Shown here piece by piece: positions 1,592 to 32,606 of a stretch of DNA of 39,271 bases (its first letter is position 1; each line of letters begins with the position of its first letter). The DNA lies in the NCBI GenBank assembly GCA_003153035.1, contig PMBT01000109.1, positions 22,042 through 61,312 of the forward strand, given 5' to 3'. Made by a program: the position numbers and the translations under genes. The notes under the pieces are model-generated. The model saw only the letters and a program-made list of their open reading frames with translations. It did not search any database and was not told where the DNA came from. Source of the DNA: Opitutia bacterium (lineage in GTDB: Bacteria > Verrucomicrobiota > Verrucomicrobiia > Opitutales > Opitutaceae).

Positions 1592-2314
1592 TCAGGTTTC
1601 GACGGCAATCCCTCGGACAGGCGCTGCACCGGGCTTCCCTTTGCTGCGCGTGTCGAGGAGTTGAACCAGCAGAGCCGGGAAAGTCCTAAGCATGATCCGC
1701 AAGTCCAATAAGAGTGATTTATTCTGGGCGTACTGGATATCCAGGCGGATCATCTCGTCGAAGGTGGTCCGGTTCTTTCCAGAGACCTGCCAGAGGCCGG
1801 TTAATCCAGGCAACGCATCGAAACGGCCGCGCTGCCGGGCGGTGTATTTCTCATACTCGTAGGACATACAGGGGCGAGGTCCAACCAGACTCATCTCGCC
1901 GCGCAGGACGTTGACGATCTGGGGCAGTTCGTCCAAGCCTGAGGCGCGAATCAACCGGCCGCCGGGAATCAGCCGCGCGTCCCCGCGGGCGTCCATCTTG
2001 ACCATCGGTGCGTTCGACTGGATCAGATGATCGCAATGGGTCTGGTGGATGCGGCGGTCAGCCCCGACATGCATGGTGCGAAACTTGTAGCACTGGAAGC
2101 GCCGGCCCTGGAACCCGACGCGTTCCTGACGGAAGAACACCGGCCCGGGCGAGGTGAACTTCATCACGATGGCGGTTAACACGGTGAACAGCGCGAGCAC
2201 TGGCAGCGCCGCCAGGCTGCAGGTGATGTCCACGGCCCGTTTCCAGACTGGCATCTCGACAGACGTTTGGACGGACGGTTCTTTATTCAAAAGTCTGCCG
2301 AAATCGAAGTGCAT
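1592..2314 (-). CDS. Priming sugar transferase (WcaJ/ExoY/RfbP family)
   Basis: Membrane enzyme that transfers a sugar-1-phosphate from a nucleotide sugar to undecaprenyl phosphate, the first step of exopolysaccharide or O-antigen repeat synthesis. One hydrophobic segment follows KRAVDITCSLAALPV. The family blocks are all present: SPGPVFFRQERVG, FQCYKFRTMHVGAD, ASGLDELPQIVNVLRGEMSLVGPRP, and a C-terminal PGLTGLWQVSGKNR. The product is short (240 residues from ATG at 2314), so it has only the catalytic core and lacks the long multi-spanning N-terminus of WbaP types. An in-frame TTG at 2377 would add 21 residues, but that part has no family similarity and would overlap the promoter region. The glycosyltransferase locus from 6.5 kb is a plausible user of its product. 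Confidence 0.9.
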   Translation of the reverse strand: MHFDFGRLLNKEPSVQTSVEMPVWKRAVDITCSLAALPVLALFTVLTAIVMKFTSPGPVFFRQERVGFQGRRFQCYKFRTMHVGADRRIHQTHCDHLIQSNAPMVKMDARGDARLIPGGRLIRASGLDELPQIVNVLRGEMSLVGPRPCMSYEYEKYTARQRGRFDALPGLTGLWQVSGKNRTTFDEMIRLDIQYAQNKSLLLDLRIMLRTFPALLVQLLDTRSKGKPGAAPVRGIAVET

Positions 2315-2370
2315 GAGCAGTGAAAGGGGACGCTGGGCGGTACACGGTGTGCCGCGATCGAGGGACAGTG

Positions 2371-2399
2371 TCGTCAAATCGAGAGTAAGGCAATATAAT
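2371..2399 (+). promoter_or_regulatory. Candidate promoter for the VanZ-ligA pair
   Basis: A perfect TATAAT lies at 2394-2399 in an unusually AT-rich patch (about 2385-2425) of an otherwise GC-rich region. TCGTCA at 2371-2376 is 17 bases upstream and matches four of six positions of a sigma-70 -35 box. This would give a leader of about 210 bases before the VanZ-like gene. The same AT-rich patch could also hold the divergent promoter of the sugar transferase. Confidence 0.45.
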
Positions 2400-6477: not shown

Positions 6478-7737
6478 TTGGCTGAGCCACCGATTACAGC
6501 GGCGTATCTGTTCACGACCTTTCCGAAGACGTCCGAGGCGTTCCTGCAGCGCGACGTCGCGGCGATGCAGGCGCGCGGAGTCAAACTGCGGCTCTATTCG
6601 CTCTGGGGCGGCGGCGGCGAGTTCAACGGTCTGCCGGTCCGGTCCCTGCCGCGCTGGTGGTTCTTCGTGGCGCTGCTCTGGTGGATCCCCGTTGAATCGG
6701 CGCGCTACCCTGCGATGCTCTGGGAGCTCATCGTGAACACCTGCCGCCGGCGGGCGCCCTCGGCGCTCAATTTCTGGGAGAACATGCTCGGCGCCGGATT
6801 CACCGCCTGTTTTGTCCACGAGTTCCGCCGCGATCCGCCCGACCTGGTGTACGCGGCCTGGACCGGCGCGCCGGCCACGGCGGCCTGGCTCATGTGGCGG
6901 CTGACCGGCATCCCGTATGCCACCGGTGCGCATGCCTACGATCTGTACGAGCACGGCGGCGACTGGTGGCTGATGGAAAAGGTGGCGCTGGCGCGCTTCG
7001 TGCACACGTCGACTGAGATGGGGCGCCGTACGCTGCTGGAACACGGCGCCGACCCAGCCCGGGTGGCGGTCATCCGGCGCGGACTCGAGGTCTTTCCCGA
7101 ACTGAAGCCGCTGCGTCCGGACCGCCGCCCGCTGCGGCTGATATGCGTGGCGCGACTGGTGCCAAAGAAAGGGCTGCGGGCGCAACTCCAGATCTACGCA
7201 GCAGTGCGCCACGCTGGATTGGACTTTGCCGCGCGGATCGTCGGTTCGGGCGAACTGCGCGAGGAACTTGAGCGCGAAACCGCCGCGCTCGGGTTGGCGC
7301 CGCTGGTGACGTTCACCGGCGAGGTGGCGACGGCCGCGGTGTGGGAGCACCTGCGGTGGGCCGACGTGCTGCTGCACACCGGCGTGGTGACGCCGACCGG
7401 CGACCGCGACGGCCTGCCCAACGTAATCCCGGAGGCGATGGCCGCCGGCACCATCGTGCTGACCTCCTTCGCGGCGGCCACGACTGAGGCGATCCAGTCC
7501 GAGGCGACGGGCCTGGTCGCCGACGTAACCCGACCGGCGGAATGGGCCGCGGCCTTGCGGCGCCTGGCAGACGATGATGCGCTAGCGGAGCGGCTGCGGG
7601 TGGCGGCGAGGATCTGGGTCGAGGAAAATTACGACGCGCGCCGGAATGCGGAGCGGCTGCACGCCTGGTTTGCGCAGGCGGCCGCGGAAGGCCGCGTCCA
7701 ATCCCGCGAGAGTCCGCCTGCGGGAACCCGCTCATGA
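6478..7737 (+). CDS. GT4-family glycosyltransferase (WcaL-like)
   Basis: Retaining GT-B glycosyltransferase using a nucleotide sugar at the inner face of the membrane. The recognisable protein begins with ITAAYLFTTFPKTSEAFLQRD, typical of colanic-acid-type WcaL enzymes. The C-terminal half has RLICVARLVPKKGL, VGSGELREELE, and the donor-binding EX7E region DGLPNVIPEAMAAGT. The frame is open back to 6286 but only antisense to the phosphoesterase gene; the residues before about 6478 look random. A TTG at 6478 gives 419 residues, the usual family length, and is chosen here. ATG at 6364 would give 457 residues. Its stop overlaps the next glycosyltransferase start by four bases (ATGA), so they form an operon. 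Confidence 0.85.
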   Translation: MAEPPITAAYLFTTFPKTSEAFLQRDVAAMQARGVKLRLYSLWGGGGEFNGLPVRSLPRWWFFVALLWWIPVESARYPAMLWELIVNTCRRRAPSALNFWENMLGAGFTACFVHEFRRDPPDLVYAAWTGAPATAAWLMWRLTGIPYATGAHAYDLYEHGGDWWLMEKVALARFVHTSTEMGRRTLLEHGADPARVAVIRRGLEVFPELKPLRPDRRPLRLICVARLVPKKGLRAQLQIYAAVRHAGLDFAARIVGSGELREELERETAALGLAPLVTFTGEVATAAVWEHLRWADVLLHTGVVTPTGDRDGLPNVIPEAMAAGTIVLTSFAAATTEAIQSEATGLVADVTRPAEWAAALRRLADDDALAERLRVAARIWVEENYDARRNAERLHAWFAQAAAEGRVQSRESPPAGTRS

Positions 7738-8780
7738 TTTACCTCGATGTCACCAAATCCGGTGCGGCACGGCATCAATCCGGATTGATGCGGCTGAACG
7801 CGCGGCTGCGCGATGAGCTCGGGGCCGCGGCGACCCCGGTGATCTGGGTCGGCGGCAAGGATGGGTGGTTGCAGAGCGGCCACCGGGCGCCGGTGAGGTT
7901 TCTGCCGTCTGACTGGCTTTTAACCGCCGAGCTCTTCAGCGAACCGGAGCGGCCGGGTTTCTGGGACTTCCTGCGCGCGCGGCCGTGCCGGCTGGGCGCG
8001 ATGTTCGCCGACGCGATTCCGCTGCGGCATCCACAGATCACATGGCCGCAAAGTGTGGCACGGCATCCGGAGTACCTGAAGATGCTGGCGGCGTTCGATC
8101 GCGTCTGGGCGATCTCCGAGGCGAGCCGCCGCGATCTTGCGGCGTTCTGGCGCTGGCAGGGCGGGACGGTGCGGGCCATGGCGGGGGCCATCGAGCTTGG
8201 CGCGGATTTCGACCGTCAGCCACGGGTGACAGCGCCGTCCCTGCCGGCAGCCCCGCAGCTGCTGTGTGTTGGCATCCTGGAGCCGCGGAAGAACCAGTTG
8301 TTCCTGCTCGACGTGTGCGAGGCGCTGTGGGCGTCCGGCGGCGATTTCGAGCTTCACCTCGTTGGCCGGGTGAATCCCCATTTTGGCCGACCGATCGCCG
8401 AGCGGTTCAAGGCTTTGCGGAGGACCCAGCCGCGGTTACACCATCACGAGGCTGCGTCCGACGCGCTCATGAGCCGGTTGTTCGCGGCGGCGCGGGCCAC
8501 GGCGTTTCCCACCATCGCGGAGGGCTGTGGCCTGCCGGTGCTGGAGTCGCTGTGGAAGGGGCGGCCATGCGTGTGCAGCGACCTGCCGGTCCTGCGGGAA
8601 ATTGCCGGGGGCGGCGGATGCCGATTGGTGGCGCTCAACGACGCGGGTGCCTGGGCGACTGCGCTGCGCGCCGTGCTCACGGATGACTCGGAGTGGCACC
8701 GGCTGGCAGGGGAGGCGGCGGCCCGGAGGTTACCCGTTTGGGCGGACACGGCGCGGGCGCTGCTCGCAGGCCTAGTTTAG
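7734..8780 (+). CDS. GT4-family glycosyltransferase (mannosyltransferase-like)
   Basis: A 348-residue GT-B glycosyltransferase. The acceptor-side half holds FADAIPLRHP and RVWAISEASRRDL; the donor half holds LLCVGILEPRKNQ, HLVGRVNP and the EX7E box AEGCGLPVLESLWKG. It is clearly paralogous to the product of 11490-12695, with the same blocks in the same order (VGxxExRKN, EGxGLPVLES, GGGC), though that gene lies in the opposite operon. WbdA/WbpZ-like mannosyltransferases share this pattern, but donor and acceptor cannot be assigned. Translationally coupled to the upstream glycosyltransferase; the next gene is convergent. Confidence 0.88.
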   Translation: MIYLDVTKSGAARHQSGLMRLNARLRDELGAAATPVIWVGGKDGWLQSGHRAPVRFLPSDWLLTAELFSEPERPGFWDFLRARPCRLGAMFADAIPLRHPQITWPQSVARHPEYLKMLAAFDRVWAISEASRRDLAAFWRWQGGTVRAMAGAIELGADFDRQPRVTAPSLPAAPQLLCVGILEPRKNQLFLLDVCEALWASGGDFELHLVGRVNPHFGRPIAERFKALRRTQPRLHHHEAASDALMSRLFAAARATAFPTIAEGCGLPVLESLWKGRPCVCSDLPVLREIAGGGGCRLVALNDAGAWATALRAVLTDDSEWHRLAGEAAARRLPVWADTARALLAGLV

Positions 8781-8796
8781 GCCAGAAGCATGGATC

Positions 8797-8818
8797 TGTA
8801 GGAAGCGCGCTTCCTACA
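8797..8818. terminator. 22-bp perfect palindrome between convergent genes
   Basis: TGTAGGAAGCG is followed directly by its reverse complement CGCTTCCTACA, a 22-bp perfect palindrome 17 bases after one stop and 85 bases before the convergent MFS stop. Its first 15 bases are identical to 19866-19880, so it belongs to the REP-like family described there. A transcription-ending role is likely from position; there is no strong T-run. The rest of the gap (8819-8902) shows nothing else. Confidence 0.6.
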
Positions 8819-8902
8819 AATGCATGTTTATTGCCCTGGCGATGATGATCTGAAACCGGCAGACGGAGGGGCCTGCCCGTCCTGTTGCTGCAACCGCCTA
8901 GT

Positions 8903-10168
8903 TCAGGTGGAAACCGGTTCCGCGGCGACTGCCCGGGCCGGCTGCGGGCGCCACAGCAAAAGGGCGGTGGCGAAACCGAGGATGCCGAGAACGCCGCAAG
9001 CCGACTCGGTGAGCAGCATGTTCTTTGGACCAAGGAGGATCTCGGCGGCTGCGAGCAAGAGACCCATGTACCAAATCGGCGTGTTCGAGAGCGAAGCGAA
9101 GCCGTTGTATTTGGTGGCGGCATTGCCGGCGCCGATGGCATCGAACACGAAACCAGAGAACGCGGCGTAGCAGAATCCAGTCACAAGAGCGTAGGCTAGG
9201 CTGAAGATCATGTAGGTCGCAGGGTTCGCTGGTGCAACGGCCATGGCGGCGGTCACCGACGCCATGATCGCCCCGTAAACCACATAAGCCGTACGCGCGC
9301 CGAAGAACCTGCACCCGTACCCGCCAATGAGGCAGCCTACCATGGAGATGACACCGGTGAGGAGACCCTGCACGAGCTCCACCTCGTGCGCGCCCACGCC
9401 CCAGAAGGCCGCGACCTCGGCTTGCGTAAGCACACCGGCCGCCGCGCCCGTGCCGACGGGCACAAAACAAAGCACGGCGCACAGCACACCGTCCCGCGAG
9501 CGGATCACCTGCCAGATATCCACGGCAACGGCGCGAATGGCGCCGGCCAGAGAACCGTCTCGCGGTTCCGCCACCACGTCGGGCAGCAGCGGCAGCACCG
9601 CGGCGCAGCCCAGCGTCAAAGCCGCCAGCACCAGCCCGGTCTGCCAGCCCGCCGGCAGGTTGGTCAGAAGCCACAGCCCGGCGCCTCCGCCGAGGCCGAC
9701 TCCGCCGAGATTGCCGGCCTGAAACCAGCCGCTGACACGGCCGCGGTCCGCTGCCGGTGTCAGATGGGCGATCATGGCCTCCACCGCGAAGCCCAGGAAG
9801 GTCGCGGCCACGCTGGTCACCAGGACAATCACGCCCATGGGCCCAAGCGTGGGCGGCCCCAGCGGCACCGCCGCCATCGCGAACATGCCCGCCGCGCACA
9901 GGATGCAGGAGAGCAGATACCAGCGCTTGCGCGTGAGGGTGGTGTCGGCGAGCGGGGCCCAGAAGAACTTCCAGACGTTGGGGAACATTCCGACCGCAAT
10001 GAGCTCCGCGCCCTGGGCGACGGTCAGGCCCTTCCGGGTGGCGAGGAATGCGAGGGCGACGCTCACAAAGCCGAAGGTCGCCCCGAACGGCGCGATCAGC
10101 ACCGTGTAGAGAAACGGGTGCGGGGGATGGCGGGTCGCTGCGGGAGAACCGGGGCCGGGCGGATTCAA
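8903..10168 (-). CDS. MFS permease, AmpG/acetyl-CoA-transporter-like
   Basis: A 421-residue integral membrane protein with about twelve hydrophobic segments. Features typical of the AmpG-like branch are the N-terminal block VGMFPNVWKFFWAPLADTTL and the adjacent TRKRWYLL, equivalent to the MFS loop 2-3 signature, and the second-half LIGGYGCRFFGARTAY. AmpG-type permeases move muropeptides or other amphiphilic sugars. As the last gene of the glycan operon, 28 bases after the oxoamine synthase, it may move a glycolipid, a building block or a breakdown product, but this is only context. The start is TTG at 10168; no ATG precedes the first membrane segment. Confidence 0.8.
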   Translation of the reverse strand: MNPPGPGSPAATRHPPHPFLYTVLIAPFGATFGFVSVALAFLATRKGLTVAQGAELIAVGMFPNVWKFFWAPLADTTLTRKRWYLLSCILCAAGMFAMAAVPLGPPTLGPMGVIVLVTSVAATFLGFAVEAMIAHLTPAADRGRVSGWFQAGNLGGVGLGGGAGLWLLTNLPAGWQTGLVLAALTLGCAAVLPLLPDVVAEPRDGSLAGAIRAVAVDIWQVIRSRDGVLCAVLCFVPVGTGAAAGVLTQAEVAAFWGVGAHEVELVQGLLTGVISMVGCLIGGYGCRFFGARTAYVVYGAIMASVTAAMAVAPANPATYMIFSLAYALVTGFCYAAFSGFVFDAIGAGNAATKYNGFASLSNTPIWYMGLLLAAAEILLGPKNMLLTESACGVLGILGFATALLLWRPQPARAVAAEPVST

Positions 10169-10196
10169 GTGAAGGCGGCTGCGAGTTTCCCCGCTT

Positions 10197-11393
10197 CTAA
10201 AGTTTCTTCACGGCATAGGCCATGGCTTCGGCGACCTTGTCGAGGTCCTCGTCGCTGTGCAGGGCCGACACGGCGGTGCGCACGAGATCCTTGCCGGGCG
10301 GCACGGCGGGGGCAATGGACATGACCGTGAACACCCCCTTTTCGAGCAGGGCCTGCCAGAAGCGATAGACGAGTTCCTTCGAACCGAGCACGATAGGAAT
10401 CGCCGGCGTGTCGCTCTCCCACGTGTCGAGGCCGAGCCCCTTGAGCATGTCCCGGTAGCGGCGCACATTCCGCCAAAGGCGATCGAGGTGCTGGGGTTCG
10501 CTCTGCATGACCTCGAGGGCGGCCGCGGCGCAGGCGGCCTGGCTCGGGCTGATCGCGGCGCTGAAAATCGTCTGCTTCGAATGAAAACGCAGATAATCAA
10601 TAAGGCTGCGCGAACCGGCGACAAAACCTCCCGTGCTGGCCAGCGACTTGGACAGGCTGCCACAAATGATGTCGACCTTGTCGTTGACCCGGAAGTGATC
10701 GACCGTGCCCCGTCCCTGCCGGCCGAGCACACCGAAGCCGTGGGCATCGTCGAGCACAAGGAAGGAGCCGGACTCCTCCGCAATCTCCGCGATCTCAGGC
10801 AGCCGGGCGATGTGGCCTTCCATGGAATAAACGCCCTCCACTACGATAAGTTTCGGCGTGGTGTAGGGGATCGTCTTGACGAAATGGCGCAGGTCCTCGG
10901 GATTATTGTGTGAGAACCGCTCGACGGCCGCCATCGAGAGCCGGATTCCGTCCAGCACAGAGGAGTGGATGTTCTTGTCAGCCAGGATGACGTCGCCCTT
11001 CTGGGCAAAGGCGGCGACGCTCGACATGCACGAGATGTAGCCCGCGACGCTGACGTGACAGGCCTCGCGGCCGAGGAAGGCGGCCAGTTTCTGCTCCAGC
11101 TCGACATGGCAGGCGCGCGAACCGTTGGAGGGGCGGGCTCCGGTGGTGCTCGTACCCCACTGAAGCAGGGCGGCGCGGCCCGCTTCGATCACCTTGGGAT
11201 GGAAGGACAATCCCAGGTAGTCATTGCTCGCCAGCATGATGATGTCGCGGCCGTTCAGGCGGACGTGCGCCCCCTGCTGCGCGTCCATCGCATGATAGAA
11301 CGGTTTGTATTTGAGGAGCATCTTCGTTGCGTAGTCGTCGCAACAACGCTCGAAAATCGCCTTCTTGTTCCGGTTGAGGAGGGTCAGGGCCAT
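10197..11393 (-). CDS. PLP alpha-oxoamine synthase, serine palmitoyltransferase-like
   Basis: Joins an amino acid to an acyl thioester with loss of CO2 (family: BioF, KBL, ALAS, SPT). From the ATG at 11393 it has 398 residues, the family's length; a TTG at 11435 would add 14. Visible blocks: ASNDYLGL, TTGARPSNGSRACHVELEQ, the VLDDAHGFGVLG aspartate/histidine segment, and the PLP lysine in GSLSKSLASTGGF. The lysine block and the C-terminal GVFTVMSIAPAVPPGKDLVRT look closer to serine palmitoyltransferase than to BioF (no biotin genes nearby) or KBL (no threonine dehydrogenase nearby). If right, it would make a sphingoid base, a possible lipid anchor for the glycans built by the neighbouring transferases. 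Exact substrate is not proven. Confidence 0.75.
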   Translation of the reverse strand: MALTLLNRNKKAIFERCCDDYATKMLLKYKPFYHAMDAQQGAHVRLNGRDIIMLASNDYLGLSFHPKVIEAGRAALLQWGTSTTGARPSNGSRACHVELEQKLAAFLGREACHVSVAGYISCMSSVAAFAQKGDVILADKNIHSSVLDGIRLSMAAVERFSHNNPEDLRHFVKTIPYTTPKLIVVEGVYSMEGHIARLPEIAEIAEESGSFLVLDDAHGFGVLGRQGRGTVDHFRVNDKVDIICGSLSKSLASTGGFVAGSRSLIDYLRFHSKQTIFSAAISPSQAACAAAALEVMQSEPQHLDRLWRNVRRYRDMLKGLGLDTWESDTPAIPIVLGSKELVYRFWQALLEKGVFTVMSIAPAVPPGKDLVRTAVSALHSDEDLDKVAEAMAYAVKKL

Positions 11394-11489
11394 GGGTCGG
11401 GTGGGAACGATTGGAGAGCCGGGACGGCATAGCAAACCGAAAGCCCCGCTAGCGTGAGCCCGACTCCGGCGCTCCGCCCCGGTTTTGCG

Positions 11490-12695
11490 TCAGGCGCCCC
11501 GGCGAGCCAGCGTGGCCATCCAGGACACGAGTTCGCCGGCGTAGGTGGACCAGGTCTTGAACGTGCGGTCCCGCGCGTTGCTGGTAAGCCCCTCGAGACG
11601 GTCAGGATCGGAAAGCAGGGAAGCGATGGCGTCGGCCAGGGCGGAAGCGTCGACCCGCTCGAGGGCCAGGCAGCCGCCGCCGCGGGCGGACTCGCCAAGC
11701 GCGCTGTGAGCAGAACAGATGCACGGTTTCCCGTGGCTGAGGCTTTCGAGCACAGGCAGTCCGAATCCCTCCATCAGCGACGGATAAACGGTGAAAAGGC
11801 AGGTGCGGTAGGCGTCCTGCAAGCCGGCCTCGGACGCCGGTCCATCGTAAAAGAGAGGCCGTCCGGCAGCCTGAAGCGCACGCAAACGCTCAATGGCGGC
11901 GCGGCCCGTTTGCGGGTGGCTGAGTCCAATCAGGCGCAGTTCAAAACGCAGGCCGCGCTCCCAGAGCCTCTCGCAGGCATCGAACAGAGCGAGGTGGTTC
12001 TTGCGGCCCTCGATTGAACCGACGCTTAGAATCACGGGAGACGCCTTCGGTGCGACGGTGTGCCCATAATGCGCGGGGGCCGGCGAATCGATGCCCAACG
12101 GCAGACCAATCACCGGCGGCGGATTCGCGATGCCGAGCCACTGCCAATAATCAACGAGCGTCGCGCGCGAATCCTCGGAAATTGCGGCAATGCCGTCGAA
12201 GCTCAGGAGTTCCTGCAGGTAGGCGGGATAACGGGCGACCGTCTTGGCCGGCGACAGCTCCGGCAGGCGCAGCGCCGTGGCATCGTGGAACAGAGCCACG
12301 CGCGGACCGGAGACACCGGCGAACAGGCCGGGCAGCGCGCGACCGGCGATGGGGGAAAAGATTTCGGGCTCGATAAATGCGCCGCCCGAAATCGCCGGTT
12401 CGCGCCCCGGTTTGCTTCGCGCACCTAGCCAACGGCGGAGACGGCCGCTGATTCTAGCGTGCAGCGGCCAGCGGGCGCCGCGGGCTCCGGCCGTGGTGCC
12501 GCGGGGCGGCGCGAGATTGCGCTTCTCCCAGCCGCGGAGCGGCCGCCAGGCGGACTCATAGGCATCGTACGTCAGCGGCAGCAAATCCTCCCCGCGCCCG
12601 GCCAGCCCCGCATAGAGCGAGCGGCCCAAGCGCTGGATGCCGGTCTGGGCCCGCGTGTGGCTGGTGTGAGTCAGATCGATCAAAAGTCGGGTCAT
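11490..12695 (-). CDS. GT4-family glycosyltransferase
   Basis: A 401-residue retaining GT-B enzyme. It begins RLLIDLTHTSHTRAQTGIQRL, the glycine-rich N-terminal loop common in mannosyl- and rhamnosyltransferases of polysaccharide loci. Then come FHDATALRLPEL, IAAISEDSRATL, ILSVGSIEGRKNHLALF, and the EX7E box MEGFGLPVLESLSHGKP. It is paralogous to the 7734-8780 product, which lacks about 50 residues of the N-terminal half. Its start overlaps the stop of the preceding membrane gene by four bases, so the two are coupled; 96 bases separate it from the oxoamine synthase. Confidence 0.88.
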   Translation of the reverse strand: MTRLLIDLTHTSHTRAQTGIQRLGRSLYAGLAGRGEDLLPLTYDAYESAWRPLRGWEKRNLAPPRGTTAGARGARWPLHARISGRLRRWLGARSKPGREPAISGGAFIEPEIFSPIAGRALPGLFAGVSGPRVALFHDATALRLPELSPAKTVARYPAYLQELLSFDGIAAISEDSRATLVDYWQWLGIANPPPVIGLPLGIDSPAPAHYGHTVAPKASPVILSVGSIEGRKNHLALFDACERLWERGLRFELRLIGLSHPQTGRAAIERLRALQAAGRPLFYDGPASEAGLQDAYRTCLFTVYPSLMEGFGLPVLESLSHGKPCICSAHSALGESARGGGCLALERVDASALADAIASLLSDPDRLEGLTSNARDRTFKTWSTYAGELVSWMATLARRGA

Positions 12696-14284
12696 GGTGG
12701 GGCGGACGGCCTTTCTGACACAGAAATCGCCGGATCATAAAGCGCGAAACCCAGCCGGCGGGCATCCGGGCTGGCGCTCTCCGGGACGGACGGCCCCTCC
12801 GTCGCCAGTTCGAGGTCCATGTCGCCCGTCACCAGCAACGGCGGCAGGCTCGCCGCGGTGAGCGTCCCGCCGATCGGGCCGCGCCAGATTTCGCGCCCGG
12901 CGGCCAGAATGCGAAGCGTGCGTTGCGTCAAGCTCAACAGGCGCAGGGTCAGGCGAGTCTCGATGACCGCGTGGCGCGGCCAGGTGGCGATCGACAGGTG
13001 GCCGTCGGACTCAGCCCATACCCAGCGGTGACGGGCATCCTGTTCCTGTCCATACCAGCCGTCGCGCAGTTGGACTGCTCCAACGGCGCGCCAGTGGCGC
13101 GCCACGACCAGTTCGTGCGGATCACGCGGCGGCGCATCGCGAAACGCGAGCAAGCCGGAGAACACGGTGAGATTGCAGGCCAGGAGCAATGCGACTAGCG
13201 CACGCGTGCGCAGAGCGATCACATTGCAGGCGAGGCTGAGCGGCAGGAGGACACGGGAGGCTGCAACAGGGAAGCCTTCCCAAACCGCCGGGCCGAGGGC
13301 CAGCAGCAGCAGCGTGTAGGCGGCGCCCACGCGCCACCAGGCGTCAGCAGGCCGCGGCCGGAGGAGAACGAACCCGGCCTGCACGGCGAGACCAATCATG
13401 GCGATCAGGGTGGCAAAGGCGTACTCGTTGAGCGGAAGACCGGACTGGATCAAGATGCCCGCGCATTCGGTCGATTTCTCGACGAGACCGACCAGAGGCC
13501 ACGCGAAATTCCCCACACCATGGTTAACCGGCCCGACGCACCAGTTGATGTAGCCGAGCCATGCGATCAACGGCGTCGCAGCCAGCATGATCCAAAGCAG
13601 ATTGCGCCCAACCGCGCGCGGAGATTTCCAGGGTCCGGTGACAAAGGCCGCGCCAGCCAGCAGCGAGGTTTCACGGGTGAGGGCGGCGGCGGCAAGCCAA
13701 CCGACGGCGGTGCGCGGGCGCCCCCGCTCGGCGGCCCACACGGCCGCGGCGACGAGGGTCAATGCCGGCAGATCAATGAGCGCGAACCGGACGCTGCCCA
13801 GCACCCCGGCGGAAAACAGGATTCCGGTCCAGGCGATGAGACTGCGGGCATCGTTAACCGGCAGCATCCGCCACAACACGGCGGCCAGAATCAACCAGCA
13901 GACGATGTTGAGGCCCGAATAAAGCTGGGCAATCCAGGCCGGCTGACCTGCCGCGAGCAGCCAGGCCAGGGCCGGCAGGAGGATACGTTGCGCCCGGTAG
14001 GGGAGGTTGTCGATGGCCGGCCGCAACTCGCCAGCCTTCAGCAGGGGATGGTGAGCGATCTGGGCGTACTGGAGGCCGTCGTAACCGCCGTTATCGCGAT
14101 GGACAAACACTGGGTAATCATGGAAGGCGGCAAGCGCCACGGCCGCACTGCGCGTGTCGAGCTGCAGAAAAGCCGTGAAACCATAGATCGGGTGCCAGAA
14201 GCGCACCACAATTCCGAGGAACAGCACCACGGCCACGACGGCGATGGCTTTCACAAGCCGACCGGCTGGAATAACAGGAGGCAT
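12692..14284 (-). CDS. GT-C-like membrane protein with C-terminal beta-rich domain
   Basis: A 530-residue protein with an N-terminal membrane segment, a periplasmic loop carrying FVHRDNGGYDGLQYAQIA (D69), then about nine more membrane segments up to about residue 385. A GYDxQ-type acidic loop after the first membrane helix is the hallmark of GT-C lipid-linked sugar transferases. The last 130 residues are not hydrophobic and look like a beta sandwich (LTLRLLSLTQRTLRILAAGRE). Residues 58-100 align closely with the product of 15814-17481 (shared DNLPYRAxRIL), so these are paralogs. It starts two bases after the stop of the upstream GT-C gene. No named enzyme is recognised; sugar and acceptor are unknown. 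Confidence 0.75.
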   Translation of the reverse strand: MPPVIPAGRLVKAIAVVAVVLFLGIVVRFWHPIYGFTAFLQLDTRSAAVALAAFHDYPVFVHRDNGGYDGLQYAQIAHHPLLKAGELRPAIDNLPYRAQRILLPALAWLLAAGQPAWIAQLYSGLNIVCWLILAAVLWRMLPVNDARSLIAWTGILFSAGVLGSVRFALIDLPALTLVAAAVWAAERGRPRTAVGWLAAAALTRETSLLAGAAFVTGPWKSPRAVGRNLLWIMLAATPLIAWLGYINWCVGPVNHGVGNFAWPLVGLVEKSTECAGILIQSGLPLNEYAFATLIAMIGLAVQAGFVLLRPRPADAWWRVGAAYTLLLLALGPAVWEGFPVAASRVLLPLSLACNVIALRTRALVALLLACNLTVFSGLLAFRDAPPRDPHELVVARHWRAVGAVQLRDGWYGQEQDARHRWVWAESDGHLSIATWPRHAVIETRLTLRLLSLTQRTLRILAAGREIWRGPIGGTLTAASLPPLLVTGDMDLELATEGPSVPESASPDARRLGFALYDPAISVSERPSAPP

Positions 14285-14286
14285 CT

Positions 14287-15804
14287 CTAGAGGGTCGCAG
14301 GCGGGTCATAGCGCCAGATGCTCACTTGGCGCACGGTGCCGACTTGGGTCCACGGTCCCGGGATGTGATCACGGAAGGCATGCCACTCGTCGATTTCATA
14401 GGGATACAGCACCGCATATATCGGCCGGCCGGCCACCACGCAGGCGCCAGCGATCCGCTGGAAATCTGCCGGTGTGATCATGTCCCACCGCACCAGCGTG
14501 AAATCGGTGTAGTAGAAGAGCGCGCCGGTGGTTTCCATGGCTGCGACCGCGGCATTGGCAGGGACGTGCGCCTGAAGCCACGCCGCCGTTTCGGCGTAAA
14601 TTCCCTCAGTGCGGCCGATGGTCAGCGCATGCAGATGGCGGGACCAGGCGGCACCGTGCAGGAGGACCGCCAGGGCGGCCGGCGCCAGCCACCAGGCCCG
14701 GGGCGTCAGATTGAATCGAACGACCAGTCGTCGCGCGGTCAGGAGACTCGCTACGATGATGGGCGGAAACGCCGGCAACAGGAAACGCAGGTACCACCAG
14801 TCGTCATGCGCATGGGAATAGAAAAGGTAAAAGACCGGGTAGATGAGCCCCCACACGGCGAGCAGACCGGAAAGCCGTAGCCACGGGCGCTTGGACACCG
14901 GCAGGCCCAGCGCCAGCAAGGCGATCGGCGTCAGCAGCACTGGCAGCCAGGTGACATAGTAAACCAGCGTGGCCGGCACGTACACCGGGCTGAATTCGAA
15001 TCCAACGGATCCGTAGCCGGTGGTAATGGCATGACCGTAGGCCGCCAGGTTATGAAACGAGAGGAACAACGCACCCGGCACGCCGCCAAGAAACAACAGG
15101 AGCCAGCGGCGCGGAGTGAGGCCGAAGGCAATGGCCATCGGCGCAACGGCGAGAAGATTGGTGGGACGCACCAGCACCGCGATGGCCAGCGCCATTCCCG
15201 CGGGCAGCGCCATCCAGGTCCGTTCCCGGCTGCGCCAGGCGCAGAGGACCGCAGCGGTCACCCACACCAGCGCGGGCACGTCGCTCATCACCTGCACCGA
15301 CACAAAGAAATAGAGTGGGCTTGCCGCGAGCAGCAGCGCGCCCAACCAGGCCCAGCCGGGTGCCAGGCCAGCCTCGCGCGCCAGCCGGTAAACCAGCCAG
15401 AGGCCGAACAGGGCGTGCGCTCCCATCGCCAGGGCGGGCGCCAGCTCCCAGCCGAAGATTCTTGCCACCGCCAGGATCAGCAGAGGCAGGCCCACGGGAT
15501 AAGTGGGAGTCATCGTGACATGATCCGCGTTGGGGATAAATCCCAGCGGAACATGGGTGTACATCGGCAGGGTGTCCGGCCGGGGATCCGGAACGAGGAG
15601 CATCGGGGCGGTTACACGCCCCTGGTCCAGGAGGCGGGCCTCGTTGAGATAGCCCGACTGGTCGGACCCACCGGCGTAGGCCCCCATAAAATGCGCCAGC
15701 AACAGGGCGTAGAGCAGGAAACCCAGGGCGGGCGGCAGCAGCTGCCACGCAAGCCGGCGGGGAAGGGCAGCGGGCGCCAGGTTGGGGAAAAGGCGGGAAT
15801 CCAT
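14287..15804 (-). CDS. GT-C glycosyltransferase, GT39/GT83 (PMT/ArnT-like)
   Basis: A 505-residue multi-spanning protein. After the first hydrophobic segment (LLPPALGFLLYALLLAHFM) comes GGSDQSGYLNEARLL, the acidic first loop where polyprenyl-phosphate sugar transferases of the PMT/ArnT type hold their catalytic Asp. Ten or so membrane segments follow, with VRPTNLLA and DDWWYLRFLLPAFPP typical of these families. The C-terminus (about 420-505) is a soluble periplasmic tail. It should move a sugar from an undecaprenyl-phosphate carrier to a lipid or protein in the periplasm. An ArnT role is conceivable because arnA and arnD occur at the right end of the window, but they are 22 kb away. First gene of the minus-strand operon. 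Confidence 0.78.
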   Translation of the reverse strand: MDSRLFPNLAPAALPRRLAWQLLPPALGFLLYALLLAHFMGAYAGGSDQSGYLNEARLLDQGRVTAPMLLVPDPRPDTLPMYTHVPLGFIPNADHVTMTPTYPVGLPLLILAVARIFGWELAPALAMGAHALFGLWLVYRLAREAGLAPGWAWLGALLLAASPLYFFVSVQVMSDVPALVWVTAAVLCAWRSRERTWMALPAGMALAIAVLVRPTNLLAVAPMAIAFGLTPRRWLLLFLGGVPGALFLSFHNLAAYGHAITTGYGSVGFEFSPVYVPATLVYYVTWLPVLLTPIALLALGLPVSKRPWLRLSGLLAVWGLIYPVFYLFYSHAHDDWWYLRFLLPAFPPIIVASLLTARRLVVRFNLTPRAWWLAPAALAVLLHGAAWSRHLHALTIGRTEGIYAETAAWLQAHVPANAAVAAMETTGALFYYTDFTLVRWDMITPADFQRIAGACVVAGRPIYAVLYPYEIDEWHAFRDHIPGPWTQVGTVRQVSIWRYDPPATL

Positions 15805-15813
15805 TCTTGCCTC

Positions 15814-17481
15814 GTGAAAGCGAAGCGTGTGGTTTGTCCTCTTTTCGTGGAGCGGATCAAACTATTTCTCCGACGCTGGCACCATTTCTGGTACTGGGCC
15901 GCCAATGGCGCGGCGGCGGGATTCTTCATCTGGAACGCGGCGCAGTTTTATGTGCCGGGCAAGGGCTTCACCTACCTGATCCTTTTCAGTGGCAGTCCGG
16001 GACTGCACCATATCCGGGAACTCCAGTCGGTTGATTATTACGTCCACAAGGATTCCTACGGCTACGACGCCCAGTACTACGCCCAGCTGGCGGTAAAACC
16101 GGTGCTAGGGAGCCGGGATTTGCGGGCGGCGATGGACAATCTGCCCTATCGGGCGCGGCGCATCCTGTTTTGCTGGTCGGCCTACGTATTCGGCCTGGGG
16201 CGGCCCGACCTCGTGCTGCAGGCGTACGCGGTGCAGAACCTGGTCGCGTGGCTGTTGCTCGCCTGGCTGCTGCTGCGGTGGTTTCCCCCGACTGGTCCGG
16301 ACAATCTGGTGCGGTGGGCGGGAACGATGTTTGCGTGGGGCCTGACGCAGAGCGTGAGCGAGGCCCTGATGGACGGTCCCAGCCTGCTGCTGATCGCCTG
16401 CGGAGTGGTCCTGGCCGAACAGGGCCGCCGGTGGACCTCGGCGTGCGTGCTGGGCATCGCCGGGTTGGGCCGCGAAACCAATCTACTTGCCGGGCTGGCC
16501 CACCTTCCGGGCCGCGATTGGAGCTGGCGCGAGATCCTGCGGGCGGCCGGCCGCGGAGCGATCATCGCCGCCCCGCTCGCGCTGTGGTTGGCCTGCCTGT
16601 GGTATGTTTTCCGGGAGCCCAGCAACACCGGTCTGCGCAACTTCGCGCCGCCGTTCGCGGCCGGCTGGAAGAAATGGTGCGACACGGTGCGGGAATTCCA
16701 GGCCAATGGCTGGGACTCCAACGCCCGATGGTCGCTCCTGATGATGATCTCCCTCACGGTGCAATTCCTCGTTATCATGCTGCGCCCGCAATGGACCAGC
16801 CCGTGGTGGCGCATCGGCGCCGCCTATGCGGTGTTGATGGTCTTTCTGGGCGAGGCGGTCTGGGGCGGATTTCCGGGTGCGGCGGCCCGCGTCCTGGTGC
16901 CCATGACGCTCGCGTTTAACATCGTCGTGCCGCGGGGCCGGTGGTGGTGGCTGGTGCTCCTGTTGGGCAACCTCTCGGCCTTCAGCGCGGCCGACCAGTT
17001 GCGACCGCCGGGTCATGAGAGCTTTCTGCTGAAGGGCCCCGCCGCCGTTTGGGAGGCACCGGCCAGGCAACCCCTCGACGTGGCGTTCAACGATCAATGG
17101 TATCAGAGCGAGCAGTCCAGTTTCGAGTACTGGCGCTGGAGCCGCGGCTCGGCCGGAATCGTCATCCGTAATCCCCAGATTATGCCCGTGGAAATCGAGC
17201 TGGATTTCGATCTGCGAGCCTATGATGAGCGGACGGTTCGCGTCTTCCAGGGCAAGACGCTTCGCTGGGAGGGCCGCGTGGGCCGGGAAAGCGCCCTGGT
17301 CCACCTTCCGGAGATCGAACTGGAGCCGGGGGATAACCACTGGCGGTTCGAGACGGACGGGTCCCCGAGCTTTCCCAATGGCGACCAGCTGCGGCCGGTC
17401 GCCTTCAACCTGCGCAACCTGGTGATTCGCGCAGTGCGGAAGATCGACCGGCCCGGTCCGGCCGGCGCATCCCGGCCATGA
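15814..17481 (+). CDS. GT-C-like membrane protein, paralog of 12692-14284
   Basis: About 555 residues, with the same plan as the 12692-14284 product: N-terminal membrane helix, periplasmic YYVHKDSYGYDAQYYAQLA (acidic GYDxQ loop), the shared DNLPYRARRIL, about nine more membrane segments, and a soluble C-terminal beta-rich domain (ELDFDLRAYDERTVRVFQGK). The open frame runs back to 15031, but that part is only the antisense of the neighbouring GT-C gene. GTG at 15814 (nine bases from the divergent ATG at 15804) or GTG at 15847 are the possible starts; the first keeps a positively charged N-terminus before the membrane helix. The two divergent genes must share a very compact promoter. Function: likely lipid-linked sugar transfer, unproven. 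Confidence 0.75.
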   Translation: MKAKRVVCPLFVERIKLFLRRWHHFWYWAANGAAAGFFIWNAAQFYVPGKGFTYLILFSGSPGLHHIRELQSVDYYVHKDSYGYDAQYYAQLAVKPVLGSRDLRAAMDNLPYRARRILFCWSAYVFGLGRPDLVLQAYAVQNLVAWLLLAWLLLRWFPPTGPDNLVRWAGTMFAWGLTQSVSEALMDGPSLLLIACGVVLAEQGRRWTSACVLGIAGLGRETNLLAGLAHLPGRDWSWREILRAAGRGAIIAAPLALWLACLWYVFREPSNTGLRNFAPPFAAGWKKWCDTVREFQANGWDSNARWSLLMMISLTVQFLVIMLRPQWTSPWWRIGAAYAVLMVFLGEAVWGGFPGAAARVLVPMTLAFNIVVPRGRWWWLVLLLGNLSAFSAADQLRPPGHESFLLKGPAAVWEAPARQPLDVAFNDQWYQSEQSSFEYWRWSRGSAGIVIRNPQIMPVEIELDFDLRAYDERTVRVFQGKTLRWEGRVGRESALVHLPEIELEPGDNHWRFETDGSPSFPNGDQLRPVAFNLRNLVIRAVRKIDRPGPAGASRP

Positions 17482-17617
17482 AGGCCAGAGGCCGGCCCGA
17501 ACGCAGTTGCGCAAGATTCCGCGATGGTCAGGCTTGTCAGCACTGATCTGAGCATTTTCATGGGACCGATGCTGTAACGATTCCGCAGAACCCCGGAAGG
17601 TAACCTCGCTAGAACCT
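17482..17617. other. Short gap between membrane-protein genes
   Basis: 136 bases between two same-strand genes. No promoter-like pair, hairpin or small gene stands out. Confidence 0.4.
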
Positions 17618-19831
17618 TTGCTTTTCATCCTCAAAACCTGCAAGGCGGCTCGCTGGGACGTGGCGCGGGTCGTCTTGTTATCCCTGCTGACGGCGATCAT
17701 CTGGTGCTGGCATCATGACCGCCTGGCTTGGTCGGCATGGTCCACGCCGCTGGATTACACGGGCGATTCGCTGGAGATTCTCGCCCGGATCAAGGCGGCC
17801 TCGGAAGGCGACCTGGTGCCGTTCCGCCCGCATTTTGTGCGCCGGCTGGGCGAACCTTTTGACGCCAACTGGAGCGAATACCCCGGTTCCGATGACCTGG
17901 CCAACTTCGGTCTGGGCGTGCTGGCGCGATTGGTCGGCGCGGCCGCGGCCAGCAATTGCGCGCTCCTGCTGGCACAGGTCACGGCCGCGCTGGCCTTCTA
18001 TCTTTGCGCGCGGCTCCTCCGGCATCGTTGGGAATGGGCGTTTGCCGGCGCGCTCCTGTTCTCGTTCTCGTTCTTTAGCCTGAGCCGGGGCCTGCCGCAC
18101 CTGTGGCTGACGTTCACCTACACGGTACCCCTGGCCCTCGTCACGTGCGGGCTCATTGCCGTTGGCCGCCGCGCGACGAGGCGGCCGGCGTGGCGCTGGT
18201 TGTGTTACGGTACGGCGGTGGTGCTGGGCGCGAGCAATCCCTACAATCTCTTCCTTTACCTGCAGTTGCTCGCCTGGTCGGTGCTGGCTCAGTGGCTGCG
18301 GACGCGCTGGTCTGCGGGCGTGCGCCTCGGGCTCGCCTGCGGGCTGCTGGCGGTGTTCGTGTTTGGGGCGATTCACGCGAATCTCTGGCTCAATGTCGCT
18401 GATGAAGGCAAGGCCCCGCTGCTCGTGCGAAACTATGCCGGCACGGAGATCTACGGGCTCAAGCCCATCGAGCTCTTTCTGCCTTCGAGCCGGCATCATG
18501 GCGAATGGCTGTCGGCGATTGGCAGCCGCTACCTGCGCTGGTCCGACTGGCGCGGAGAGACCTTTTCCCCGTATCTTGGACTGGTCGGCGCGGTGGGATT
18601 GATCTGGTTGCTCGCGGCGCTCGTGAGAAGCCTGCTCGCCGCCCGGCGGCGCCGGGCTCCGGGGCTGGCTTTGCCGGCGCTGTGGGTTCTCCTGTTCTCC
18701 GTCATTGGCGGCATCAACAGCATTTTGGCGTTTTACATCGGCCTGAACATCTTCCGGGCCTCCAATCGCTACAGCATCTTTCTCCTGGCGTTGGTCCTGC
18801 TGTTTGTGGTGGCGCGGCTTTCCCACCTGACGCGAAACTGGCGGCCGGCGGTCCGGCTGGGCATGGCCACTCTGGTTGCCGCGATCGGGCTGTGGGATCA
18901 GATTCCGAGGGCGGCGGGCAAGGAGGTCGTGCAGCGCATCGCCGACAGGGTCGGGGCGGATCGCCGGCTCGGCAGGGAAATGGAGCAGCGACTGGGTCGC
19001 GGGGCCATGGTATTCCAGCTTCCCATCCTGGATTTTCCGGAGGGCCTGCCTCAGCTCCGTGTCAATGAGTATGACCATTTCCGGCCGTACCTCGCCACAC
19101 GCACGATCCGTTTTTCCTACGGCGAAAGCAAGAACCGCGCGCGGGGCACCTGGCAGCGTGATTGCCTACGCCTTGCGCCGCCAGCGCTGGTGCAGGCGTT
19201 GGAAAGCTACGGCTTCTCCGCGATCTATATCAACCGGCAGGGATATCCGGACAACGCCGGACAGCTGCTGGCCGGGCTGGCCGCCGCCGGGCGCACCGAG
19301 GTCATTGATGGAATGGACCACAGTCAGATCGTGGTGCTGCTGCATCCCGCGGCCCGGGCGCAGCCGCCGCTGGCCCGGACATTCACCATCGGCCAGGGGT
19401 GGAATCCACGGCCGTCGGGCGAATCCAGCTCCGAGCCACACTGGACCAACGGGTCCGCCTCCTTGACGTATTTCAATCCATCCGCCGGTCCGCTGCAGGT
19501 TTCGCTGCGACTCACAGCCAGCGGCGTCAACGAGCGGACCCTGCGAATCCTGATCAACGGCCGGGAGCAAATCCGGGCCCGGGTCGGACTGATGCCGACG
19601 GAGATCAACCTGCCAACGGCGGAGTTTCCTCCGGGCGTCAACCGGATCGACTTCGTCACCCCGGAGCCGGCCATTCGCGTGAGCGAGCAGCGCTGGAGGT
19701 TGCGCGCCATTGGGGTGCAGCACCTCCAATTGCAGGTGCTTTCCGGGTCCGAAGCCGGGCTGGTTGATGTGTCCGACGATGCGCCGACCGGCGGCGATCC
19801 GGGGCCTTCCGGTGCCGTCGACGTCCGGTGA
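17618..19831 (+). CDS. Large GT-C-like membrane protein with C-terminal beta-rich domain
   Basis: A 737-residue protein from a TTG start; the next in-frame GTG at 17660 is also possible. It has one N-terminal helix, an acidic periplasmic loop (YTGDSLEILARIKA, PFDANWSEYPGSDDLANFG), about ten more membrane segments to about residue 430, then a soluble region. Residues about 465-575 (FQLPILDFPEG, NEYDHFRPYLATRTIRFSYG, SYGFSAIYINRQGYP) form a first periplasmic domain. The last 120 residues (VSLRLTASGVNERTLRILINGRE) match the end domain of the two GT-C-like paralogs nearby. The membrane part differs from those, so the shared module has been combined with a different core. No enzyme name can be given; a lipid-linked sugar or phosphoglycerol-type transferase is the best guess. 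Confidence 0.7.
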   Translation: MLFILKTCKAARWDVARVVLLSLLTAIIWCWHHDRLAWSAWSTPLDYTGDSLEILARIKAASEGDLVPFRPHFVRRLGEPFDANWSEYPGSDDLANFGLGVLARLVGAAAASNCALLLAQVTAALAFYLCARLLRHRWEWAFAGALLFSFSFFSLSRGLPHLWLTFTYTVPLALVTCGLIAVGRRATRRPAWRWLCYGTAVVLGASNPYNLFLYLQLLAWSVLAQWLRTRWSAGVRLGLACGLLAVFVFGAIHANLWLNVADEGKAPLLVRNYAGTEIYGLKPIELFLPSSRHHGEWLSAIGSRYLRWSDWRGETFSPYLGLVGAVGLIWLLAALVRSLLAARRRRAPGLALPALWVLLFSVIGGINSILAFYIGLNIFRASNRYSIFLLALVLLFVVARLSHLTRNWRPAVRLGMATLVAAIGLWDQIPRAAGKEVVQRIADRVGADRRLGREMEQRLGRGAMVFQLPILDFPEGLPQLRVNEYDHFRPYLATRTIRFSYGESKNRARGTWQRDCLRLAPPALVQALESYGFSAIYINRQGYPDNAGQLLAGLAAAGRTEVIDGMDHSQIVVLLHPAARAQPPLARTFTIGQGWNPRPSGESSSEPHWTNGSASLTYFNPSAGPLQVSLRLTASGVNERTLRILINGREQIRARVGLMPTEINLPTAEFPPGVNRIDFVTPEPAIRVSEQRWRLRAIGVQHLQLQVLSGSEAGLVDVSDDAPTGGDPGPSGAVDVR

Positions 19832-19865
19832 CCGCGCTGGCCGGTGGGCGGCCGGCCCCTGTAAT

Positions 19866-19986
19866 TGTAGGAAGCGCGCTCGCGCGCGACTCTTCTTCAG
19901 ACGGGGAATCGCCCGCGAGCGGGCTTCGACATTAATCTGGACCCGCAATTATGGGAAGCGTTCTGCTGTCGAGCAGAAGGCGCGAC
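19866..19986. repeat. REP-like palindrome cluster
   Basis: Three palindromic units in a row. Unit one (19866-19891) reads TGTAGGAAGCGCGCT then an alternating CG core ending CGACT. Unit two (19903-19930, opposite orientation) has a GCCCGC/GCGGGC stem. Unit three (19954-19986) has a seven-base stem TTCTGCT/AGCAGAA inside the same GGAAGCG...GCGAC frame. Unit one shares 15 identical bases with 8797-8811. This resembles the REP elements known from many GC-rich bacteria. No RAYT-type transposase is in the window. Confidence 0.75.
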
Positions 19987-20077
19987 TAGGCTTTTCCCTC
20001 CCTGCGCGTGGGCGATCAGGGTCGGCCAGCGGAGAATTTCGTCGCCACGGTCCGAGGGCGGCGGCATCTACTCCGGC

Positions 20078-20812
20078 ATGGACGAGGCCGAGTACTACAA
20101 GATGGCCGAGGTTGAGGACCGGATGTGGTACTACCGATCGTTGCACGGCCACTGTGCCCGCCTCCTTGCGGCGCACCTCGGAAGCCGGTCGGCGGCGGTG
20201 CTCGACGCCGGCTGCGGCACGGGCGGGATGATCCGCCACCTGGAGAGCACGCTGCCCGCCGCCCGCCTCACCGGACTCGATTTCTCGCCGCTGGCCTGCC
20301 GCCTGGCGCGATCGCGGGTTCGCGCGCCGATCGTGGAGGGATCGGTTGCGGCGATGCCGTTCGAGGCCGCGGCCTTCGACGTCGTTGTCTCCGCTGATGT
20401 CCTGTACGAGTTGGACCGTCCGGCGGCGGCTCTGGCCGAGTTCAGCCGCTGCCTGCGGCCGGGCGGGTGGGTCGTGCTCAACGTCCCGGCGTACCGCTGG
20501 CTCTGGTCGTATCATGATGTCGCCGTGCGCTCGAAGCGCCGCTTCGTGCGGTCCGAGATTGCCGGGTTGCTGGCGGCGGCGGGCTTCGCGGTCGAATTGA
20601 ACACCCATTGGAATGCGCTCCTGTTTCCGCTCATCGTGGCGAAGCGCAAGCTCTTTGCCCGGGCCACCGACACGAGCGACGTGAAGTCGTATCCGGCGCC
20701 GGTCGAGGCGGCCTGTCGTTGCATGATGACGGTTGAGCACGCCTGGCTGCGGCTCGGAGGAATCTGGGCGTGGGGCAGCTCGATTCTCGCGGTGGGACGC
20801 AAGCGCCCATAA
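20078..20812 (+). CDS. Class I SAM-dependent methyltransferase
   Basis: A 244-residue methyltransferase of the type-11 (UbiE-like) fold. Motif I VLDAGCGTGGM is near residue 41, LTGLDFSP follows as the ribose-binding acidic strand end, then VVVSADVLYEL (motif II/post I) and CLRPGGWVVLNVPAY (motif III). The N-terminal YYKMAEVEDRMWYYRSLH is common in methyltransferases found next to polyprenyl-glycosyl and lipid genes. The substrate is not known; the place at the end of the glycan locus suggests a sugar or lipid. The REP cluster separates it from the upstream gene, so it may be transcribed on its own. Convergent with tsaE. Confidence 0.82.
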   Translation: MDEAEYYKMAEVEDRMWYYRSLHGHCARLLAAHLGSRSAAVLDAGCGTGGMIRHLESTLPAARLTGLDFSPLACRLARSRVRAPIVEGSVAAMPFEAAAFDVVVSADVLYELDRPAAALAEFSRCLRPGGWVVLNVPAYRWLWSYHDVAVRSKRRFVRSEIAGLLAAAGFAVELNTHWNALLFPLIVAKRKLFARATDTSDVKSYPAPVEAACRCMMTVEHAWLRLGGIWAWGSSILAVGRKRP

Positions 20813-31730: not shown

Positions 31731-32606
31731 CTACGCCGGCACCATGACGTGCAAGGATCGCGGTCGGATGATCACCTCGATGTCAGGTCCCGTCTCGTGC
31801 ACCTCACCATCGGTATGAATGCAGCCCGGCGCGGTACGCTGGATGGTAAAGCGTCCGCCCCGGAGGTGGACCACCCCCGGGCCGCGATCAAAGGAATTGA
31901 GAAAAAGCCGGGCCAGGAGCGGAACGGCCTGGAGAAAGCTGGAGGCGGGTACGGCGATGAGGTCCAACCGGCCGTCGTCGACCTGCGCGCCCGTCGCGAC
32001 GAAAGCCGCGCCGCCGTACTGGTCGGAGTTGCCCACGGCCACGAGGGTAGCCCGGATGGTGACGGTGTTCTGGCCGTCGCGAATGACAAAGGTCTCCGGA
32101 TGGAAGCGGTGCCAGGCGCTCACGCCGATCCGGAAATACGCCGCGACGCCGCGGCTGGTGATCCGATTGAATTGCCGGCTGATCTCGGCGTCGAACCCCG
32201 CTCCCATGACATTGAAGAAAGGAATTCCGTTGGCCGTGCCGGTGTCGATCGTGCGCCGCCGGCCGGCGAGCAGGGTACGGAAAGCGCGATCGTCCGGCCG
32301 GGCAAGACCGAGATGGCGGCTGAGGCCGTTGCCCGAACCGCAAGGGATGAGTCCGAGAACGGTGTCGGTGCCAACGAGGGCCTGCGCCACCTCGTTGATC
32401 AAGCCGTCTCCGCCGACGGCAACCACGAGCCCGCAGCCATCGTCGACGGCGCGCCGCGCCAGCTCGGTGGCGTGGCGGGGGCGCTCGGTCGGCACCACGG
32501 CGGCGGCGAGATGGTGTTCCGTGATAAACGCATGGATCCTGTCGAGCAGCCGGGGTCCGCCAGGGCCGCGGCCCGCGCGGGGATTGAAGATAAAACGGAG
32601 ATTCAA
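31731..32606 (-). CDS. YegS/DAGK-type lipid kinase
   Basis: Diacylglycerol-kinase-fold enzyme of 291 residues. The nucleotide-binding FIFNPRAGRGPGG is near residue 5; the catalytic block VVAVGGDGLINEVAQAL is near 62, followed by LGLIPCGSGNGLSRHLGL and FNVMGAGFDAEIS. All family motifs are intact. Related proteins phosphorylate diacylglycerol, phosphatidylglycerol or sphingoid bases. The last is of interest because an SPT-like gene occurs in this window, but no direct link is shown. TTG at 32606 is the only start that keeps the NPRAG motif. Divergent from miaA. Confidence 0.88.
   Translation of the reverse strand: MNLRFIFNPRAGRGPGGPRLLDRIHAFITEHHLAAAVVPTERPRHATELARRAVDDGCGLVVAVGGDGLINEVAQALVGTDTVLGLIPCGSGNGLSRHLGLARPDDRAFRTLLAGRRRTIDTGTANGIPFFNVMGAGFDAEISRQFNRITSRGVAAYFRIGVSAWHRFHPETFVIRDGQNTVTIRATLVAVGNSDQYGGAAFVATGAQVDDGRLDLIAVPASSFLQAVPLLARLFLNSFDRGPGVVHLRGGRFTIQRTAPGCIHTDGEVHETGPDIEVIIRPRSLHVMVPA

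Follow-up and report, generated by a model that had tools for sequence, protein, structure and literature searches.

A serine palmitoyltransferase-like enzyme coupled to glycosyltransferase genes in Opitutia and its possible part in a glycolipid pathway

Background

Several described bacterial systems couple an enzyme of the serine palmitoyltransferase (SPT) type, or a relative, to acyl carrier proteins or to sugar transferases. In Rhodobacteria, SPT is fed by a dedicated acyl carrier protein (ACP), AcpR, in a system that also contains the acyl-ACP synthetase AasR (PMC9386255); in Alistipes, the cysteate acyl-ACP transferase SulA takes acyl-ACP as a substrate (PMC9304779); and in the GSL-2 pathway of Caulobacter, the GT4 enzymes Sgt1 and Sgt2 glycosylate ceramide (PMC6445935). 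Here we compare with these systems a locus at positions 6478-20812 of a stretch of DNA from an Opitutia bacterium (hereafter the window, 39,271 nucleotides in total), in which the gene for an SPT-like alpha-oxoamine synthase (AOS) lies among glycosyltransferase genes. There is a real, if not quite even, chance that what the window holds is one half, that of the glycosyltransferases, together with the amino-lipid-forming enzyme, of a conserved glycolipid pathway of the class Opitutia, a little-studied group of bacteria, in which an SPT-like, ACP-fed step would lead to a glycosylated sphingoid-type lipid.

A Black Sea survey lists 22 Verrucomicrobiota metagenome-assembled genomes (MAGs) with Spt-like proteins as sphingolipid producers (PMC11334938), and a cyanobacterial case shows that an SPT-like sequence need not mean sphingolipid synthesis (PMC8895605). 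A literature search recovered no report on Opitutaceae sphingolipids or on a cluster of AOS, ketosynthase, ACP, and glycosyltransferase genes; what is new here is that the AOS forms a separate clade, that it has carrier-protein and ketosynthase partners, and that glycosyltransferase genes adjoin it. The window corresponds to positions 22042-61312 of contig C43 in a source genome of 4.02 Mb (86% complete, 176 contigs), and its closest named relatives are Opitutaceae/Opitutia MAGs.

Results and Discussion

An SPT-like enzyme in a clade of its own

The AOS gene (10197-11396, minus strand) encodes 399 amino acids from an ATG start, in a frame that a TTG codon extends to 11435. The product matches Aminotran_1_2 (164 bits) and, among the NCBIfam models, scores best with those for SPT (SPT-CFB, 375 bits; SPT-betaP, 351), followed by BioF (325) and KBL (314). 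An earlier note on this DNA had named phylogeny against SPT, BioF, and KBL as the check on this enzyme. Two maximum-likelihood trees, from which eukaryotic SPTs, CqsA, and known SulA sequences were absent, placed it with the SPTs and apart from BioF and KBL, with split support of 100/99 and 100/98, and, in the second tree, apart from ALAS as well. It is thus very improbable that the enzyme serves biotin synthesis as BioF or threonine catabolism as KBL, whatever the shared superfamily and the scores of these two models might suggest: the trees separate it from both, and BioB, which is found in 0 of the 10 Opitutaceae sampled, occurs across the 132 genomes of the order that make up our association sample in 7 of the 61 with a high-scoring AOS versus 37 of the 71 others. 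Both identities were rejected on the trees and the BioB distribution; a separate KBL is also present (locus L003).

The equivalents of the SPT residues Asn52, His138, Asp210, His213, Lys244, and Arg367 are invariant in all 133 AOS orthologs. SulA is similar to the window enzyme in being an AOS of the SPT fold but differs at the position that discriminates it from SPT (Lys in SulA, Ala in SPT; PMC9304779), where its Lys281 is matched by Ala in 133/133 of these orthologs, and a SulA identity was rejected on this ground. The Bacteroidota SPT (Sphingobacterium multivorum, 3A2B/8GUH; NF047600) gives the best PDB match to AOS (307 bits) and shares with it the catalytic residues and the side of the tree. 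The two differ in other respects: AOS reaches 375 bits against a cut-off of 640, as it also remains under the other curated SPT cut-offs (351 against 500 and 267 against 670), sits on a long private stem, has mostly Ala in place of Ser81, and is accompanied by an ACP-FabZ fusion and a ketosynthase (KAS) rather than by a linked ceramide synthase. Judged by sequence, the enzyme is best called SPT-like and not a canonical SPT, because it fails the SPT cut-offs and because a near-canonical SPT sits on another contig, C60, of the same genome.

Sequences with at least 53% identity to AOS are numerous across the genomes of the order and are confined to the class Opitutia, and identities elsewhere in the sampled phylum do not exceed 43%; the window AOS belongs to a separate clade of single origin. 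Among the sequences sampled, the branch closest to this clade is that of a Rubrobacter enzyme (support 97/97 in the first tree, 82/94 in the second), whose gene has a GNAT gene and one for an epimerase-like reductase beside it. Other AOS genes occupy open frames of 1341-1372 codons, each immediately next to a GNAT homolog (G080:C26:119603-121851, G050:C1:1572832-1575086, and G102:C29:37214-39447), and these are possible multidomain sphingolipid enzymes.

Conserved coupling to glycosyltransferases

All ten genes between 6478 and 20812 are present, and the coordinates, Pfam, NCBIfam, and modeling agree with the earlier picture of a locus with three GT4 enzymes, an SPT-like gene, several GT-C proteins, and a methyltransferase. 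The order GT-C, GT4, and AOS, followed by the facing genes GTupB and GTupA, recurs in most of about 80 Opitutaceae loci, such that this arrangement of GT4-AOS and a convergent GT4-GT4 pair represents more than chance. In the window, the GT4 gene that is the first upstream of AOS (11490-12695, minus strand; Glycos_transf_1, 71 bits) encodes a protein with which GTupB clusters (7734-8780, plus strand; 63 bits in Pfam), and GTupA (6478-7737, plus strand; Glycos_transf_1, 83 bits) is an EpsE-like GT4 enzyme that falls under the cut-off of the NCBIfam EpsE model at 117 bits; all three GT4 proteins exceed the Pfam cut-offs. In several of the order's families, the GTupA ortholog also shows linkage to both ACP-FabZ and AOS. 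Comparison of gene order in relatives, another proposed check, therefore bears out the coupling of AOS to glycosyltransferases, which is conserved across Opitutaceae and, via GTupA, in several families of the order.

The same comparison bears on an unlikely but serious alternative, namely, that the product of AOS is a free lipid, conserved and of the sphingoid or aminoketone type, and that its neighbors belong to an unrelated surface glycan, in a variable glycan island. AOS stands alone among housekeeping genes in families f8, f21, f22, and part of f20, and the GT-C and outer glycosyltransferase genes differ between loci, as this scenario would have it; the recurrent GT4-AOS and convergent GT4-GT4 order in most Opitutaceae loci, along with the way the occurrence of GTupA follows that of AOS and ACP-FabZ in several families besides, speaks against it.

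Between AOS and GTupB lies the gene for a major facilitator superfamily (MFS) permease (8903-10168, minus strand), which had been taken for an AmpG-like member of the operon. The protein matches MFS_1 (57 bits), with a sub-threshold BT1 match, no match to NCBIfam AmpG, and no relative in the PDB. None of the other loci compared contains the gene, and L043, which comes closest to the window in layout, has nothing between AOS and GTupB. The gene is thus an insertion specific to the source genome; because no other compared locus carries it, it was placed outside the conserved locus, and an AmpG partner was rejected as a locus member.

A carrier-protein and ketosynthase module

In many relatives, the genes beyond GTupA encode a GT28-like protein, a short-chain dehydrogenase/reductase (SDR), a KAS, an ACP-FabZ fusion, a GT4 enzyme, and a thioesterase. 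The equivalent block of the source genome, with active-site motifs that look intact by eye, is on contig C175 (26243-30670), so that the most telling partners, the ketosynthase, ACP-FabZ, SDR, and GT28, are outside the window; two further Opitutaceae genomes, of which one is complete, likewise have the block split off from AOS. A housekeeping FabF is also present in each of four Opitutaceae genomes tested (632 bits versus 324 for the cluster KAS), which makes the cluster ketosynthase an additional one.

The search of the genome for acyl-carrier genes that the earlier note had suggested thus has a positive outcome, and one that extends beyond the source genome: ACP-FabZ is present in 60 of the 61 AOS genomes versus 15 of the 71 others, counts which, like the Fisher test on them, ignore shared ancestry and genome size, many of the negatives being small genomes. 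In 27 genomes from ten families, AOS and ACP-FabZ are no more than 12 kb apart. This combination resembles the Rhodobacterial SPT in that an SPT-type enzyme is conserved with its own carrier protein (PMC9386255), but the Opitutia carrier differs in being fused to a FabZ-like dehydratase and in traveling with a ketosynthase and an SDR.

Aryl polyene gene clusters contain KAS, SDR, and ACP/dehydratase genes for a lipid-linked chain, a likeness to the Opitutia set in general description. A rival reading is that the acyl chain made by the KAS/SDR/ACP-FabZ set is aryl-polyene-like or destined for lipid A, and that the link of the set with AOS reflects nothing other than shared chromosomal history. 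To this we give little credence. The set does occur without AOS in 15 genomes, once beside a kdtA-like gene (label by eye), which also counts against a pathway that joins the set to AOS; yet the carrier protein is found in nearly every AOS genome, in close linkage in 10 families, and LpxC is present in 124 of the 132 genomes, including the source genome, being near-universal with or without AOS, so that the association of AOS with the ACP cannot be put down to lipid A. By the same token, the lipid does not appear to replace lipid A, and a glycosphingolipid substituting for lipopolysaccharide, as in Sphingomonas, was rejected. Two of the AOS-less KAS/FabZ modules are L165 and L166 (genomes G020 and G016, respectively), one of which adjoins the kdtA-like gene (label by eye).

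A second SPT locus and the question of ceramide

The SPT on contig C60 of the source genome (locus L180, 6396-12629) scores 613 bits with NF047600, against a cut-off of 640, and groups with Bacteroidota SPTs in the tree. Close to it are genes for a GNAT-type putative ceramide synthase, a PAP2_3 protein, and a methyltransferase, so that C60 is a putative second sphingolipid locus with a near-canonical SPT.

These findings bear on the notion that the window itself is a canonical glycosphingolipid locus, with SPT, ceramide synthase, and sugar transferases. The position of AOS on the SPT side of the tree and its retained catalytic residues agree with that notion, which nevertheless appears improbable considering that the near-canonical SPT, with its GNAT and PAP2 genes, is on C60, that the window enzyme falls under all SPT equivalog cut-offs, and that the C60-type GNAT is found in 6 of the 132 genomes of the order versus 61 for AOS, in a search that used a putative, not a proven, bacterial ceramide synthase (bCerS) as the query. 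A ceramide synthase had been sought as a companion of AOS; the candidate turned up with the C60 enzyme instead. The Opitutia and Caulobacter systems both have an SPT-type enzyme and GT4 enzymes, two in Caulobacter, but GSL-2 is ceramide-based, with bCerS, its sgt genes are apart from spt by locus numbers, and GT-C, GT28, and KAS-module genes, which the Opitutia loci have, are not described in that report (PMC6445935). The glycosphingolipid-like surface lipid proposed in the earlier note is, accordingly, retained in part: an SPT-side AOS is coupled to glycosyltransferases, but not as the canonical SPT of a ceramide pathway.

Another SPT arrangement is found in an E. coli PN43 plasmid record (L175), where an operon for a fatty acyl-AMP ligase, an NAD-epimerase, an ACP, and an SPT, the latter passing NF047599 (600 bits, cut-off 500), lies beside lptG and lptF.

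A proposed pathway

The starting points for a reconstruction are computed observations: the genes present, the extent to which they co-occur and are linked, the SPT-side phylogeny, the intact catalytic residues, and the GT-C fold of one paralog. In the glycolipid pathway that we favor, the dedicated ketosynthase, SDR, and ACP-FabZ fusion (on C175 here, adjacent in many relatives) would construct or modify an acyl chain while it is held on their own carrier protein. The SPT-like AOS would then condense this chain with an amino acid, of which serine is the likeliest, to yield a 3-keto long-chain amine with loss of CO2, and the ketone would be reduced by the SDR or another reductase. Sugars would be added at the cytoplasmic face by the GT4 and GT28 enzymes, and the glycan might be extended at the periplasmic face, with polyprenyl-phosphate sugars as donors, by GT-C enzymes, certain of which carry a carbohydrate-binding domain. 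We infer the ACP-fed condensation, ketone reduction, and glycosylation by analogy with the Rhodobacterial SPT, SulA, and Caulobacter Sgt1/Sgt2, and the substrates, the order of the steps, their membership in a single pathway, the product, and its outer-membrane location are to be read in the same conditional sense.

Several points, besides the above limits on the association counts and the KAS/ACP/FabZ sets that lack AOS, weigh against this pathway. It is weakest where it assigns a role to the GT-C proteins and where it has the ketosynthase module supply AOS; in the families where AOS stands among housekeeping genes, the link with the ACP is evidently not obligatory. The equivalent of S. multivorum Ser81 is Ala in 127 of the 133 orthologs, so that the amino-acid substrate is uncertain and may differ from serine. 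The cluster SDR is weakly KDSR-like (89 bits against a cut-off of 400), and no ceramide synthase was found tied to AOS in the genomes of the order.

A bolder and quite tentative possibility is that Opitutia have a novel lipid class, in which an SPT-like enzyme with its own chain-building module (ketosynthase and ACP-FabZ) would produce an aminolipid to which GT4, GT28, and GT-C enzymes attach sugars, alongside and independently of the ordinary sphingolipids that a second SPT would provide in some members. If a distinct glycosylated lipid is indeed made on its own carrier, the assignment of sphingolipid producers on the basis of Spt would have to be divided more finely, and a class that is widespread in water and soil would gain a directly testable membrane lipid, with the ACP-FabZ fusion, the extra KAS, and the SPT-like enzyme as three handles for finding the product.

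GT-C proteins and the remaining genes

Of the four GT-C or GT-C-like proteins claimed previously, three are upheld by predicted fold, family match, or homology. GTC1 (12692-14284, minus strand) and GTC3 (about 15847-17481, plus strand, start codon uncertain) are paralogs with 33% identity that belong with the AZOBR_p60025 family (130 and 108 bits, respectively, both under the cut-off of 150); neither they nor GTC4 match Pfam, and GTC4 has no NCBIfam match either. A sequence profile of GTC1 retrieved nothing useful from the PDB, and its placement came from fold comparison alone. In an AlphaFold model built with 30 relatives as input (predicted local distance difference test, pLDDT, 92.5), residues 1-388 match ArnT (Z 16.2), AglB (16.4), and PimE (15.9) over about 300 residues, with ALG3 also among the matches (overall range, Z of about 14-16). 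The GT-C call is thereby confirmed by prediction for GTC1 and, through homology, for GTC3; for GTC2 (14287-15804, minus strand), which is PMT/GT39-like, it is confirmed by Pfam PMT (24.7 bits, cut-off 22.7). GTC4 (17618-19831, plus strand), a large membrane protein with a C-terminal beta-sandwich, yielded a model too poor for a GT-C assignment (pLDDT 64). GTC1 is accessory, being found in only some relatives. Its C-terminal beta-sandwich, at approximately residues 389-526, aligns with CBM35 domains (Z of about 8.8), and such a carbohydrate-binding appendage is reminiscent of the Emb arabinosyltransferases. The locus ends with a gene for a class I S-adenosylmethionine-dependent methyltransferase (20078-20812, plus strand; Methyltransf_11, 80 bits).

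The 22 kb of the contig upstream of the window contain, in a by-eye reading, respiratory and efflux genes, and an upstream exopolysaccharide locus was rejected on that account. Genes downstream in the window include tsaE and thiL (labels by eye from sequence). Near the start of the window, an orphan priming sugar transferase (1592-2377, minus strand; Bac_transf, 198 bits) has no polysaccharide genes adjoining it. Farther along, at 31731-32606 (minus strand), is a gene for a YegS/diacylglycerol-kinase family protein; a gene of the diacylglycerol kinase family adjoins SPT in Bacteroides and Parabacteroides records (L172 and L177).

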